Shown here: positions 2,815-14,308 of the stretch, in pieces | Layout of the letters: every line of letters starts with the position of its first letter | Numbering within the stretch: position 1 is the first letter of the stretch | Origin: Symploca sp. SIO1C2 | GTDB lineage: Bacteria; Cyanobacteriota; Cyanobacteriia; Cyanobacteriales; Coleofasciculaceae | Reading direction: 5' to 3' | NCBI GenBank assembly: GCA_010672925.1 | Contig: JAAHFP010000015.1 | Location: 62,001-126,000 of the forward strand | Length of the DNA stretch: 64,000 nucleotides | The notes under the pieces: generated by a model | The model's input: the letters and a program-made list of their open reading frames with translations, nothing else | Told to the model about the DNA's origin: nothing | Databases searched by the model: none | Position numbers and translations under genes: made by a program

Positions 2815-3294
2815 GTGAGTAACACAATGGGTGTCAACAGAATTAGAATTGCTAAAGACAAGGCTAATTTAGTACAAGCTTTAACTGCATCAAAGGATAC
2901 AACCGGACCTTTTCAGACTTACGCCGATGTAGTTGTATTTGCTGCTACCCTAGGGGCACAGAAGAACAAACGAATTCCTCTAGGTACTATCTCTAAAAAA
3001 GAACCTGCTCCCATTGGACTCGAAATCTTTGTGTCAAGGGGATATGACTTGGTACTGAAGTTAATTGCGATCGCGGAAACGAAGGACACGAAAATTATCT
3101 CACCTAGTGATAACGTTGCCCAAGAGAAACGCATCCGTATCTTTGAGGAGTATGCTAATGGCGGATTAGATATTTTGCGGGATGAGTTACGAGGAGCGGT
3201 AGATTATTCGGAGCAACTGTTGTTATTACTGAGTGCGGAACGATTTCAGGAGGAGCTTACAGAAGATAGTTTCGATTTGAGTAGGTTTTTATGA
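2815..3294 (+). CDS. DNA phosphorothioation (Dnd)-associated protein 4-like
   Basis: 159 residues from GTG 2815; ATG 2827 is an alternative start. It shows the conserved blocks I associate with the dnd-associated protein 4 family: [18 protein letters not shown] near the N-terminus, a PIGLEIF block, LIAIAETKD, and [18 protein letters not shown] towards the C-terminus. The family is known from phosphorothioate modification and restriction loci, but its biochemical role is not established. No dndB-E or dptF-H gene is visible in this window, so it is either an orphan or separated from its system. It is transcribed divergently from the response regulator. A heptamer array begins three bases after its stop. 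Confidence 0.7.
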
Positions 3295-3296
3295 GG

Positions 3297-3512
3297 TAGG
3301 TGGTAGGTGGTAGGAGGCAGAAGGCAGGAGGCAGGAGGCAGGAGGCAGGAGGCAGGAGGCAGGAGGCAGGAGGCAGAAGGCAGAAGGCAGTAACGATGAA
3401 AAATTTTTCACCACCAGGTGATGAAAGTAGGTTCTTCCCAATTCTCAATTCTCAATTCTCAATTCTCAATTCTCAATTCTCAATTCTCAATTCTCAATTC
3501 TCAATTCTCAAT
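3297..3512. repeat. Two heptamer arrays (GGTAGGT/GGCAGGA, then AATTCTC)
   Basis: About 3297-3390 carries GGTAGGT units passing into GGCAGGA/GGCAGAA units. About 3431-3512 carries at least eleven AATTCTC units. Both have period 7. Long open frames on either strand here are translations of the repeat and not genes. Confidence 0.9.
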
Positions 3513-3524
3513 TCCCCAACGATT

Positions 3525-5834: not shown

Positions 5835-6295
5835 GTTAGTTGTTGGTTATTGGTTATTTGTTGTTTGTAGTAATAATCAGTTAAAAAACTACCACCTAAA
5901 ACCTAAAACCTACCACCTACCACCTACCACCTAAAACCTAAAACCTACCACCTACCACCTACCACCTAAAACCTAACATCTACCACCTACCACCTAACAC
6001 CTAAAACCTAACACCTAACACCTAACACCTAACACCTAACACCTAACACCTAACACCTACCACCTACCACCTAAAACCTAACACCTAACACCTAAAACCT
6101 ACCACCTAACACCTAACACCTAACACCTAAAACCTAAAACCTACCACCTACCACCTACCACCTAACACCTAAAACCTAACATCTACCACCTACCACCTAA
6201 CACCTAACACCTACCACCTAACACCTAACACCTAACACCTAACACCTAACACCTACCACCTACCACCTACCACCTACCACCTAACACCTAACACC
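5835..6295. repeat. Long heptamer array (CACCTAA/CACCTAC)
   Basis: A short stretch of TTGGTTA-type units is followed from about 5890 by roughly 400 bp of period-7 units, mostly CACCTAA and CACCTAC with AAAACCT variants. It is the longest heptamer array in the window. It fills the whole gap between two genes and supplies the stop codon of the minus-strand gene at its right edge. Confidence 0.95.
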
Positions 6296-6711
6296 TAATT
6301 AAAAAGCTCAAAGACCTGTCGGCAGAAATGTTTCAGCTTGGGTGCAACTTCAACTGCTGGTTGGTACTTACCAACTAATTGCCAACTATCAACTGTGGAG
6401 AGTCGCCAAGCTTCTCCTTGATGATTAAATCCTGCCATTTCTAGGCCAATTAACCTTTGGTAGCCTTCCAAAGGGTCTTGATAAAACCGAATCTGCACTA
6501 GGATGCTGCGGCTTTGGAAACGCCTACTCCATCCAGGGAAGTGGAAGCCGATATCAATTGAATCTGGATCAACTAACTCGCGGGTGTCAGGATCATTTCG
6601 CCAAGGATTCAAGTCAGCTTTGGCATCAGGGAACTCTGACTTAAACAAATTGACAATTGCCGCAATCTTCGCCGTAACTTCTAACCCTCTTGCTTGTTCC
6701 GCTGCGTTCAC
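6295..6711 (-). CDS. Conserved hypothetical protein
   Basis: 138 residues from a GTG start at 6711. I do not recognise a named domain. The sequence is well formed, with a helical N-terminus (AEQARGLEVTAKIAAIVNLF), a middle region rich in Trp and Asp (DLNPWRNDPDTRELVDPDS, DIGFHFPGW) and an RSILVQIRFYQDP strand pair. That argues for a real soluble protein with homologues in other cyanobacteria. Its stop codon TAG is formed at the junction with the heptamer array. It is divergent from the downstream alpha/beta-hydrolase gene. Confidence 0.65.
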   Translation of the reverse strand: MNAAEQARGLEVTAKIAAIVNLFKSEFPDAKADLNPWRNDPDTRELVDPDSIDIGFHFPGWSRRFQSRSILVQIRFYQDPLEGYQRLIGLEMAGFNHQGEAWRLSTVDSWQLVGKYQPAVEVAPKLKHFCRQVFELFN

Positions 6712-10043: not shown

Positions 10044-12107
10044 TTATCGAGATTTGATATCCGCGATCGCATTTTTGGTCATAGCCGCGATCGCTTGGTC
10101 TGTAGCTTTGGGTAAATGGTAATATTTGCCACCAGCATGTTTAGCTAATTCTTTGGCAAAGCCCGTGGAAATAAATTTATTTTCTGTATCAATTACCAAC
10201 AGCTGCATCCCTAGTGCTCTCATTCGGCTGGCAATTTCTAGCAATTCTCCTTTAATATCCGGCTTTTCTCCTTCTGGCATTGTCTCACCGAGAGAGCGAG
10301 CTAAGGGAATATTACCCCTGCCATCGGTAATTGCGACAACTACGACTTGACCGATATCTCCCGACATCTGAGCATTCGTCCCCACTCTCACTGCCTGAGT
10401 TAAGCCATGAGCTAGGGGAGAACCACCACCACAAGGTAAACGCTCTAAACGTCCCCTGGCTAAGGCAATGGAGCGAGTTGGGGGTAACAGTACTTCTGCT
10501 TGTTCTCCCCGAAAGGGAATAAGGGATACTTGGTCACGATTTTGATAAGCTTCTGTCAGTAGTTGCATTACTGCCCCTTTTGCCGATTGCATTCGGTTTA
10601 AGGCCATTGAACCAGAAGCATCAACGACAAATACTACCAAAGCACCGGCTTTTCTGGCCAACCGCTTGCTGCGTAAATCTCCCTGTTCAATAATTACCTT
10701 GCGGTGAGGCTGACGTTGTCGCCGCCCTTTCTGGTAAGGGGCTGAGGCTCTAAGGGTAGCATCTACAGCAATCCTGGTTACTGCTCCTTTGGGTAGCATC
10801 GGCTTGACATAACGACCCCGATCCTCTGAAAAGATGATACTACGGCTTCCTGACTTACCTTGGCGCTTAGCCATTTGAGCAAAGTAGAGTACGCTGGGGT
10901 CCAGGAGAATACCTTCAGGATCGAACATAAATTCTTCTGGGATGCTAGGAGGTTCCTGTTCCTTTTCCTCTTGGTCTTCCTCTTCTTGATCCTCTTGTTC
11001 ATCCTGCTCTTGCTGAGATTCATCCTGAGGAGGTGGCGGCGGTGGCGGTGGCTGCTCCTCCGGTGGAGTTTCCACAATAGTTGAGCGAGGTACAATTACC
11101 AATTCCACCGCACGGCGCAAATCCTCAGCATTAACTTCCTGACGCCCATCCAAGGCAGCAGAAACTTTAGCCACCCGCAGAGCAAATAACTCAGCTCGAT
11201 GTCCCTGTACTCCACCGCGAATTGCTTCTTCTACCAGATAGGTAATTTGATCATGGGTAATCTTAACTTCTTTGAGCCACTCCCGCGCTAGGATAATCTC
11301 CGTCTTGAGAGTGTCTAAGTCTTCGTTGTACTGTTCGATAAACTGCTGGGGAGAGTTGGCATACTCTAGCACCTGGTTTACTGCCTGGACTCGTTGATCT
11401 AATGCCAAGATCCCATCAGCAGAGAGAGTAATGGCAATTCTGTCGAGTAAATGTTCCCGCAGCGCTCCTTCTTCAGGGTTGTAGGTAGCAATTAATAGGG
11501 GTTTGCAAGGATGTTGAAAACTGATACCTTCCCTTTCTATTTTGTTGAACCCTTCGGTAAGAACTGTCAGCAGTTGGTTGGCAATTTGGTCATCAAGCAG
11601 GTTAATTTCATCTATATAGAGGACACCTCTATGTGCCTGTGCCAGTAGTCCTGGTTGGAATACAGATTCTCCCTTTTTTACTGATTGTTCCACATCTACA
11701 GAACCCAGCAATCGATCTTCGGTGATGCCTAGGGGTATTTGTACAAAAGGAGCGGAGATGATTTCTGTGGGAAAAGGGCAATGGGGAGTGAGCAAGGGAG
11801 CATCAGCATCCTTAGTTTCCTCATTGCTTATGCCTGCTGCTTGATTGAGTAATTGATCATCCCATTCTTCGGGATAGTTGGGATGACAGTTACAAAAAGA
11901 GTCTTTTACTACTTCAATTGGTGGTAGTAGGGAATGAATAGCCCTGGCCATAACGGATTTAGCTGTACCCCTACGTCCTGCGATCGCGACTCCTCCCAAT
12001 CCGGGATCAACTGCTGCCATAAGCAGGGCAAGTTTTATGGCCTCATGCCCGATAACAGCGGTGATGGGAAAGGTAGAGATAGAAGGAGTGAGAGTCGATG
12101 CAGGCAT
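10044..12107 (-). CDS. chlD: Magnesium chelatase subunit D
   Basis: 687 residues from ATG 12107. ChlD with ChlI and ChlH inserts Mg2+ into protoporphyrin IX, the first committed step of chlorophyll synthesis. The N-terminal AAA+ domain has a Walker A-like GRRGTAKS (residues 44-51) and a Walker B-like [11 protein letters not shown] Pro/Glu/Gln-rich linker (about 345-385) leads to a von Willebrand A domain with the MIDAS motif VVDASGSM. Length and order match cyanobacterial ChlD. The stop is followed by heptamers (TCTAAAA). A partial copy of the last 30 codons lies 1.1 kb downstream. Confidence 0.96.
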
Positions 12108-12266: not shown

Positions 12267-13797
12267 TAAAGGACTCTCCTAAAGAAAAACTATTTTCCAA
12301 AAAAAGGGTGACACCCTCCACCCCTATCGTGTTATATTGAGTTAAGTAGATGCACCCTGATAAACCGAGAGCCACTTCCCGTGACTCTCTATTTTTTTGT
12401 CTAATTTCGGTAAGGCGATTTATGGACTCTTCACCGGCATCAGCCAGGAAAAGCGCTTCAATAGAAGGAAATAGACATTGATGAGAAAAAAATTTCCAAA
12501 TAGGGGTGACACCCCCCCACCCCTATGATGTTATATTGAGTTAAGTAGATGCACCCTGATAAGCCGAGAGCCACTTCCCGTGACTCTCTATTTTTTTGTC
12601 TAATTTCGGTAAGGCGATTTATGGACTCTTCACCGGCATCAGCCAGGAAAAGCGCTTCAATAGAAGGAAATAGACATTGATGAGAAAAAAATTTCCAAAT
12701 AGGGGTGACACCCCCCACCCCTATGGTGTTATATTGAGTTAAGTAGATGCACCCTGATAAGCCGAGAGCCACTTCCCGTGACTCTCTATTTTTTTGCCCA
12801 TAATTTCAGTAAGGTGATTTTTCGATTCTTCACCGGCGTCAGCGAGGAAAAGCGCTTCAATAGAAGTAAGTAGGCATTGATGAGAAGAAAATTTCCAAAA
12901 AGGGGTGACACCCCCCACCCCTATGGTGTTATATTGAGTTAAGTAGATGCACCCTGATAAGCCGAGAGCCACTTCCCGTGACTCTCTATTTTTTTGCCCA
13001 TAATTTCAGTAAGGTGATTTTTCGATTCTTCACCGGCGTCAGCGAGGAAAAGCGCTTCAATAGAAGTAAGTAGGCATTGATGAGAAGAAAATTTCCAAAA
13101 AGGGGTGACACCCCCCACCCCTATGGTGTTATATTGAGTTAAGTAGATGCACCCTGATAAGCCGAGAGCCACTTCCCGTGACTCTCTATTTTTTTGCCCA
13201 TAATTTCCGTAAGGGGATTTATCGATTTTTCACCGGCATCAGCGAGGAAAAGCGATTCAATAGAAGGAAATAGGCATTGATGAGAAGAAAATTTCCAAAA
13301 AGGGGTGACACCCCCCACCCCTATGGTGTTATATTGAGTTAAGTAGATGCACCCTGATAAGCCGAGAGCCACTTCCCGTGACTCTCTATTTTTTTGCCCA
13401 TAATTTCCGTAAGGGGATTTATTGATTTTTCACCGGCATCAGCGAGGAAAAGCGATTCAATAGAAGGAAATAGGCATTGATGAGAAGAAAATTTCCAAAT
13501 AGGGGTGACACCCCCCACCCCTATGATGTTATATTGAGTTAAGTAGATGCACCCTGATAAACCGAGAGCCACTTCCCGTGACTCTCTATTTTTTTGCCCA
13601 TAATTTCCGTAAGGGGATTTTTCGATTCTTCACCGGCGTCAGTCAGGAAAAGCGCTTCAATAGAAGTAAATAAGCATTGATGAGAAGAAAATTTCCAAAT
13701 AGGGGTGACACCCCCCACCCCTATGATGTTATATTGAGTTAAGTAGATGCACCCTGATAAGCCGAGAGCCACTTCCCGTGACTCTCTATTTTTTTAT
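12267..13797 (+). repeat. Eight-copy tandem array, about 200 bp per unit
   Basis: The segment beginning GTTAAGTAGATGCACCCTGA recurs at 12341, 12540, 12738, 12938, 13138, 13338, 13538 and 13738, giving periods of 199, 198 and then exactly 200. Each unit holds a GGGGTG...CACCCC hairpin, a TATATT box, a near-invariant stretch of about 55 bp and an imperfect stem (GAGAGCCAC / GTGACTCTC) followed by seven or so Ts. Because 200 is not a multiple of 3, no long frame spans the array. The 77-codon minus-strand frames that restart in each unit are best read as repeat artefacts. Confidence 0.95.
12730..12795 (+). ncRNA. Candidate short RNA module, one of eight near-identical copies
   Basis: Typical unit. 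GTGACA upstream and TATATT at 12730-12735 look like -35 and -10 boxes with long (about 19-base) spacing. A start near 12742 would give an RNA of about 53 bases, ending in the stem GAGAGCCAC-TTCCC-GTGACTCTC (one mismatch) and the T-tract at 12789-12795. Equivalent modules sit in the other seven units. Between copies this stretch varies at about one base, whereas the inter-module sequence varies at many. Transcription is inference. Confidence 0.5.
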
Positions 13798-13931: not shown

Positions 13932-13960
13932 ACTTCAACTTATAGCTTTTAGTGAAATTC

Positions 13961-14308
13961 ATGGCGACTTGGCGTTGTGTCAAACAATGTGGTGCGTGCT
14001 GTTATCTTGACCTTGCTAAACGACCAGGATTAGAGGATTATCTTTCTTCTGAAGAGTTAGAGCTTTATCTAAGTATGATCGGGAAAGATGGATGGTGTGT
14101 GAATTTTGAGCACGCTACCCGTCAATGCCGAATTTACGAGAATCGACCTCGCTTCTGCCGTGTAGAAGTAGATGTTTTTCAAGAAATGTACGGTGTAGAA
14201 CCGGAGGAGTTGAGTGATTTTGCCATTGATTGTTGTCAGGGGCTAATTGAGGAAGTTTATGGGGAGCAAAGTCTGGAGATGCAGCGTTTTAACCAAGAAA
14301 TCTGCTAA
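13961..14308 (+). CDS. YkgJ-type cysteine cluster protein
   Basis: 115 residues from ATG 13961; a GTG at 13952 is an alternative. The cysteine pattern CVKQCGACCYL at the N-terminus, CRIYENRPRFCRVE in the middle and DCCQG near the C-terminus is that of the zinc/iron-chelating CxxCxxCC family (YkgJ). These are small cytoplasmic proteins thought to bind a metal ion or Fe-S cluster; function not established. It stands alone, upstream of the two half-size cation exporters. Confidence 0.8.
   Translation: MATWRCVKQCGACCYLDLAKRPGLEDYLSSEELELYLSMIGKDGWCVNFEHATRQCRIYENRPRFCRVEVDVFQEMYGVEPEELSDFAIDCCQGLIEEVYGEQSLEMQRFNQEIC

Follow-up and report, generated by a model that had tools for sequence, protein, structure and literature searches.

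A tandem array of eight predicted NsiR1-like small-RNA genes with HetR-type promoter palindromes in Symploca sp. SIO1C2, and a candidate link to the hetR leader

The array between chlD and a CxxCxxCC-domain gene

The window (the whole stretch of DNA that was analysed, 64,000 nucleotides of contig JAAHFP010000015.1 of Symploca sp. SIO1C2) contains eight near-identical units flanked by chlD on the left and, on the right, by the gene of the protein that a first-pass annotation had described as cysteine-clustered, and which is a CxxCxxCC-domain protein (Table 1). The eight-unit array proposed there, with periods of 199, 198 and then 200 bp, is real. The anchor TTATATTGAGTTAAGTAGATGCACC recurs at 12332, 12531, 12729, 12929, 13129, 13329, 13529 and 13729 (i.e. 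at spacings of 199, 198 and five times 200), and TRF returns a single array (12294-13795, period 200, 7.5 copies, score 2601) that scores far above chance.

Each unit consists, in this order, of the palindrome GGGGTGACACCCC, TATATT, 7 bases, GTAGATGCACCCTGAT, 5 bases, the hairpin GAGAGCCAC/GTGACTCTC and a T-tract of seven bases, the palindrome of unit 1 being shorter (GGGTGACACCC) than that of units 2-8. GTGACA, TATATT, the stem and the seven-T run are thus present in all eight units as originally described, but GTGACA fits better as the centre of the palindrome than as a simple -35 box. The RNA part is indeed nearly invariant and the spacers variable: only 1 of 53 aligned columns varies among the eight RNA parts, compared to 19 of 102 among the seven spacers, while the promoter part varies in 7 of 46 columns. 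The hairpin of unit 1 folds at -9.9 kcal/mol (z -2.6) and is followed by the T-run, so that a -10 box, a short predicted transcript and a hairpin with T-run together give the layout of an intrinsically terminated small-RNA gene.

Table 1. Positions in the window of the array's predicted elements and of the neighbouring genes
Feature	Position	Strand	Basis
Unit 1 HetR-type core GGGTGACACCC (GGGN5CCC), about -40 from the RNA 5' core	12306..12316	+	sequence; class statistics
Unit 1 -10-like TATATT	12333..12338	+	sequence
Unit 1 predicted small RNA (5' core 12346-12361, hairpin 12367-12389, T-tract 12392-12398)	12345..12398	+	sequence; Rfam alignment; folding
Unit 2 palindrome GGGGTGACACCCC	12503..12515	+	sequence; class statistics
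Unit 2 predicted small RNA	12544..12597	+	sequence; Rfam alignment
Unit 3 palindrome GGGGTGACACCCC	12702..12714	+	sequence; class statistics
Unit 3 predicted small RNA	12742..12795	+	sequence; Rfam alignment; folding
Unit 4 palindrome GGGGTGACACCCC	12902..12914	+	sequence; class statistics
Unit 4 predicted small RNA	12942..12995	+	sequence; Rfam alignment
Unit 5 palindrome GGGGTGACACCCC	13102..13114	+	sequence; class statistics
Unit 5 predicted small RNA	13142..13195	+	sequence; Rfam alignment
Unit 6 palindrome GGGGTGACACCCC	13302..13314	+	sequence; class statistics
Unit 6 predicted small RNA	13342..13395	+	sequence; Rfam alignment
Unit 7 palindrome GGGGTGACACCCC	13502..13514	+	sequence; class statistics
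Unit 7 predicted small RNA	13542..13595	+	sequence; Rfam alignment
Unit 8 palindrome GGGGTGACACCCC	13702..13714	+	sequence; class statistics
Unit 8 predicted small RNA	13742..13795	+	sequence; Rfam alignment
chlD, Mg-chelatase subunit D, left neighbour, outside the system; kept in G001	10044..12107	-	
CxxCxxCC-domain protein (PF03692), right neighbour, outside the system; kept in G001 and G002	13952..14308	+	

The two congeners of the window genome (G001 and G002, the window genome itself being G000) both carry orthologous arrays that adjoin the same flanking genes. G001 has five units between chlD and a contig end and one more next to the CxxCxxCC gene, where a second contig ends; the three units of G002 likewise adjoin the CxxCxxCC gene and a contig end. 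Between the window and G001 the modules are on average 89.0% identical and the spacers 68.2%; between the window and G002, where two modules and two spacers were usable, the averages are 85.8% and 54.0%. The first-pass annotation had asked whether the module is as variable as the spacer at homologous loci, and in neither congener is this the case. Within the window array the spacers are on average 90.5% identical, and since they are that much more alike inside the array than against the congeners (68% and 54%), the array appears to evolve in concert. Of the two causes originally offered for the uniformity of the module (i.e. selection or gene conversion), selection is supported by the contrast between module and spacer across species, as well as by the hairpin covariation described below, while the homogeneity inside the window array looks to be partly the product of concerted evolution.

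Two further features were noticed. Beyond the intact chlD of G001, on the side opposite to the small-RNA array, lies a 26-residue match to the ChlD C-terminus (L042:4032-4109), and the window holds many heptanucleotide tandem repeats of differing sequence (e.g. 5889-6298, 3293-3390 and 3435-3514), the longest with 58.6 copies.

An RNA family that includes NsiR1

A 100-nt module query matched 57 of 97 genomes, that of the window included, and a pattern scan of named genomes found at least 115 stretches with the RNA. Among the matches listed are Nostoc, Anabaena, Scytonema, Calothrix, Rivularia, Moorena, Okeania, Spirulina, Microcoleus, Planktothrix and other genera, several of which (again among the matches listed) have tandem copies. 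Across the matches the 5' core GUAGAUGCACCCUGAU is nearly invariant and the hairpin varies, to the point that in some lineages it has been swapped outright for a CGCCC/GGGCG stem. The covariance check that had been suggested for the module came out positive: in 53 aligned RNAs, 91.3% of the hairpin cells are paired and 7 of the 10 pairs have changed on both sides, and none of 500 shuffles scored as high on either measure. A conserved RNA structure as the functional element was nevertheless rejected, and the hairpin is read as a terminator, because it has been replaced wholesale in several lineages.

The earlier proposal of a small-RNA gene repeated in tandem is thus backed by homology, compensatory hairpin changes and the constraint on the module between species, and it is near certain that the units are homologous small-RNA-gene modules under constraint. 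A functionless dispersed repeat, amplified by slippage or recombination and kept uniform by gene conversion only, would account for the likeness of the spacers inside the array, which is a sign of concerted evolution. Such a repeat is highly improbable, given the very different divergence of module and spacer between species, the hairpin covariation and a 5' core that is kept across many families despite wholly different terminators and that is common to NsiR1, an expressed regulator (PMC9045159). Even less probable is that the product is a tiny reading frame (AUGCACCCUGAU...) instead of a non-coding RNA. There is an ATG in the core, four bases downstream of the first base, which opens frames of 43 aa, but the third positions of CAC, CCT and GAT vary no more than the others (310 units, chosen by core similarity), the downstream frames differ with each terminator, and the ATG probably lies so close to the predicted 5' end that no ribosome-binding site would fit.

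The first-pass annotation saw no sequence link to NsiR1 and cited it as a precedent for architecture alone, which turns out to be wrong on the first count and unsupported on the second. The first 16 nt are identical, all eight units align over the full length of the Rfam model (RF02399, model positions 1-60), and the window genome has an 11-copy array of this same core behind promoters of the NsiR1 type. NsiR1 and these promoters, named DIF1, are already known (PMC9045159, PMC7377430), a DIF1 promoter with TCCGGA at -35 being reported for NsiR1, patS, patX and hetR (PMC7377430). Besides the 16-nt core, the window units share with NsiR1 a length of about 55-60 nt, a promoter for each copy, a terminator hairpin and the arrangement in multicopy tandem arrays. 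They differ in scoring 30.4-31.2 bits against a cut-off of 39 (at gathering level, the Rfam scan of the window gave tRNA as its sole match), in having a HetR-type palindrome instead of the DIF1 box, which is absent from all eight units, and in their terminator sequence. Whereas NsiR1 is heterocyst-specific and belongs to the Nostocales, the host family of the window array is not known for heterocysts, and the array sits between chlD and the CxxCxxCC gene instead of beside hetF, which was found as a neighbour neither here nor within 12 kb around the 11-copy array on C146. Because cut-off, DIF1 box and hetF linkage all fail, the window units are not filed as NsiR1; judged by sequence, the two RNAs are siblings.

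The border between them is in fact blurred. Three palindrome-type copies, two in Okeania (L099) and one in L061, pass the Rfam cut-off at 39.6-44.9 bits, while the arrays in two other genomes (L211 and L213) reach 54.5-69.5 bits and adjoin a CHAT protein of 822-837 aa that is taken as HetF; the 16-nt core is identical in hetF-linked arrays. For Nodularia spumigena CCY9414, 12 repeats upstream of hetF have been reported (PMC3610870). In the genome taken as this strain (G344), 12 units stand in a row, not counting three off-pattern matches at L351 of which one is a degenerate copy next to hetF. TCCGGA is present in 11 of the 12, 10 of the 12 begin with GTAGATGCACCCTGAT exactly or one base off, and model R1 (used below) detects 10 of them; the array lies upstream of a gene 61% identical to the presumed HetF of L211 and L213. 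The same genome also has an RNA-model match that shares the strand of hetR and lies 3.6 kb away from it (L308, G344:C1:1707787-1714333).

Outside the heterocyst formers, the nearest described likeness is RNA162 of Limnospira indica PCC 8005, a 57-nt RNA said to resemble NsiR1, for which expression values are given and whose host is a filamentous species that has HetR but forms no heterocysts (PMC8400943). By analogy, this suggests that RNAs of the NsiR1-like kind are expressed outside heterocyst formers, RNA162 being a single gene from a radiation study that is likened to the window RNA by its description, not by sequence (PMC8400943). Other multicopy sibling small RNAs, as described alongside NsiR1, likewise consist of redundant copies with small differences, a likeness in layout and not in sequence (PMC9045159). 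The literature search found the 5' core written out nowhere.

Promoter classes and co-occurrence with HetR

HetR-DNA complexes are reported to need GGGnnnnnCCC, the site at hetP being GAGGGGTCTAACCCCTC (PMC4192349). This reported core (GGGN5CCC) is present in all eight window units. Compared to the hetP site, the window palindrome has matching half-sites and the same N5 spacing, but its centre is TGACA instead of TCTAA and it overlaps the -35 region of the predicted RNA gene (PMC4192349). Among 311 candidate units (a set that includes a few coding-sequence false matches), 242 have an exact GGGN5CCC upstream, versus 0.2% of mononucleotide-shuffled upstreams, and 154 of the 246 matches in this set start at -40. 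With at least 5 of the 6 core letters and a start between -44 and -29, the core is found in 268 of 275 non-DIF1 units from the window and the other loci, in none of 18 DIF1 units, in none of 7 units from three HetR-lacking lineages and at 4.6% of random places; in this comparison the DIF1 array of the window genome itself lies outside the set, and the copies of two genomes with no HetR match (G010 and G027) are counted among the HetR-bearing lineages. The pattern scan of named genomes gave, among the matches listed, 185 units of which 129 have the exact HetR core, 56 neither motif and 0 DIF1, figures in which DIF1 copies are under-sampled since the scan required a TANNNT box.

Both promoter classes drive the same RNA core within the window genome. 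At up to one mismatch it has 26 copies of the RNA, 13 with a HetR-type palindrome (the eight in the window, two singles at C112 and one each at C186, C187 and C202) and 13 of DIF1 type (11 at C146:79227-80936 and singles at C35 and C1); automatic classing had given 12, 12 and 1, the C187 copy being added by eye. TCCGGA is present in 10 of the 11 units at C146, the first copy having TCCGGG. The neighbours of the C146 array (L261:5228-6937) are VOC-like and PAS/adenylate-cyclase proteins, named by reading their sequences.

The host encodes HetR (PF03574 match at G000:C1:550345, E 2.9e-75), and the distribution of the RNA follows that of HetR closely. A BLAST-based count by eye over 97 genomes found both in 55, the RNA only in 2 (G010 and G027), HetR only in 6 and neither in 34; model R1 detected the RNA in 5 of the 6 HetR-only genomes, the sixth (G024) being outside the R1 rows. 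Over 386 cyanobacterial genomes, some of which also supplied training sequences for the model, R1 found the RNA at E<=1e-5 in 80 of 80 genomes with HetR and in 9 of 306 without. The Fisher p of 3.6e-73 for this co-occurrence ignores phylogeny and overstates the evidence, because HetR and the RNA share their phylogeny. The 1e-5 cut was chosen after the output had been seen. At the preset cut of 0.01, 72 of the 306 genomes without HetR match, 63 of them more weakly than 1e-5 and 53 belonging to family f47 (small genomes); these weak matches, mostly f47, are read as chance.

The nine HetR-lacking genomes that have the RNA at E<=1e-5 are seven of one Microcystis-like genus (f8 g72), G027 and G035. 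From HetR-lacking genomes come seven copies of the RNA that have no palindrome (three from Microcystis, two Microcystis-like, one from Hydrococcus and one from G035); they represent three lineages only, five being near-identical Microcystis sequences. The upstream sequence of these copies is different (L073, L081, L092, L221 and L222 for Microcystis and Microcystis-like, L077 for Hydrococcus and L220 for G035). In Microcystis, Hydrococcus and G035, where the RNA is retained although no HetR match was found, it must serve a HetR-independent use.

Because every copy carries a promoter of its own, in which a HetR core centred near -35 is followed by TATATT as the predicted -10 box, each would most likely be switched by HetR directly, and it is likely that the array is transcribed as RNAs of about 54 nt under direct HetR control. 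A site match need not mean binding, because in the published gel shifts, as that study describes them, a distinct shift was obtained for the hetP control only, 6 of 9 new sites giving smears or loss of free probe (PMC4192349). The palindrome could also be read by another regulator with the same distribution, for example another factor of filamentous species: HetR binding is a prediction and the co-occurrence does not by itself identify the factor, the copies differ at the centre of the palindrome, and the palindrome is present in G010 and G027, both fragmented drafts with no HetR match (HetR possibly being missing from the G027 draft itself). We consider such a regulator improbable, as the conserved half-sites with N5 spacing are the published HetR requirement (PMC4192349) and three lineages lacking HetR have the RNA without the palindrome.

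Candidate pairing with the hetR leader

The predicted product would be a trans-acting RNA of about 54 nt, with an unpaired 5' core AGUAGAUGCACCCUGAU followed by the hairpin as intrinsic terminator, that would act by base-pairing through this core; the many copies would raise its dose. Among its predicted targets, the leader of the hetR mRNA itself ranks best. Over 43 hetR loci (L064 and L065 being left out as close to L063, and 7 of 25 loci in one set having failed the hetR motif filter), the most stable duplex between the 16-nt core and the stretch from -300 to +20 has a median of -16.7 kcal/mol, compared to -11.9 kcal/mol for 306 control leaders (Mann-Whitney p 1.4e-14, on related loci), the controls being other genes from other loci and not from the same genomes. 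Against 200 permuted cores, 30 of the 43 hetR leaders reach p<=0.05, versus 3 of 43 for a stretch of the coding region; 13 miss this level, eight of them being above 0.2, and the leader of the window genome itself is borderline (p=0.055).

A contiguous 10-bp site is present in 17 of the 43 hetR leaders, in 1 of the 306 controls and in 0 of 43 on the opposite strand, where the site pattern was written after the sites had been seen and 13 of the 17 sites come from f1, the family of the window genome. In the window genome the site is at -207 to -195 of hetR. Within f1, 13 of 16 leaders have [AG]T[CT][AG]GGGTG[CT], mostly as ATT[AG]GGGTGC, and in families f12 and f4 the site is ATCGGGGTGC; the sites of all three families can pair over 10 bp with GCACCCUGAU, partly through G-U. 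In the Nostocaceae (f33), a bulged GGGTGTATACTACT or a close variant is found at about -67 to -52 in 3 of 5 loci. It is therefore plausible from these complementarities that the 5' core pairs with the hetR leader, although the leader motif could instead be a DNA element of the hetR promoter.

If it is such a DNA element, the same small-RNA genes would have their main targets in mRNAs other than hetR, a reading that is possible, if somewhat doubtful. In Nostoc, NsiR1 is reported to regulate hetF through antisense overlap and the hetP-like alr3234 through pairing in trans (PMC9045159), a target other than hetR must exist in the HetR-less Microcystis that keep the RNA, and other target sites are possible in the window genome as well: of its 72 near-complements of the core (up to three mismatches) 26 are the RNA genes, leaving 46 versus 25 for a reversed control. 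A HetP-like mRNA as universal target, by analogy with alr3234, was rejected for the window genome; it is an unlikely target here, given that no member of the HetP family turned up in G000, G001 or G002 (the family is present in 15 of the 37 genomes searched). Likewise, the 12 kb surrounding the DIF1 array yielded no hetF-like gene, and, against other main targets, the hetR leaders stand out from 306 others and their variants keep the pairing via G-U.

Pairing with the hetR leader remains the preferred reading, and the array probably consists of eight trans-acting small-RNA genes of the NsiR1 kind that would be switched by HetR and pair with the hetR leader, thereby closing a feedback loop from HetR via the small RNA to hetR. 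Overexpression of NsiR1 is reported to raise HetR, which is explained through hetF (PMC9045159); direct action of the RNA on the hetR leader would be another, hypothetical route. The literature search did not find the HetR-site class of this RNA, or hetR as its target, parts of which may already be published in Ionescu 2010, Muro-Pastor 2014, Brenes-Alvarez 2020 and Elhai and Khudyakov 2018. With the palindrome class alongside, NsiR1 is recast as one of two promoter classes in a wider family. More tentatively, NsiR1 might, instead of having originated with heterocysts, be a DIF1-driven branch of an ancient small-RNA family found together with HetR throughout the filamentous cyanobacteria, in which case the loop from HetR via the RNA to hetR would be the conserved core of the HetR circuit, with its dose set by arrays of either class.

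HetR and PatX are reported from almost all filamentous cyanobacteria, and their role without heterocysts has been called a mystery (PMC11298460). The window strain is probably non-heterocystous, as its family (f1) holds Moorena, Symploca and Coleofasciculus. The RNA is found in all 80 sampled genomes with HetR, one of its two promoter classes has a HetR-type site, and the hetR leader contains a candidate site for it; it could thus serve as a probe, to learn whether it is an ancestral output of HetR, and offer a handle on the role of HetR in species that form no heterocysts. Upstream of hetR in the window genome and in G001 (L265, G000:C1:547500-553500; L311, G001:C1:8026-11572) lies the gene of a small PatX-like protein, probably secreted, whose 21-residue tandem repeats contain four (G000) or five (G001) RGSGR pentapeptides, i.e. 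a multi-morphogen PatX.
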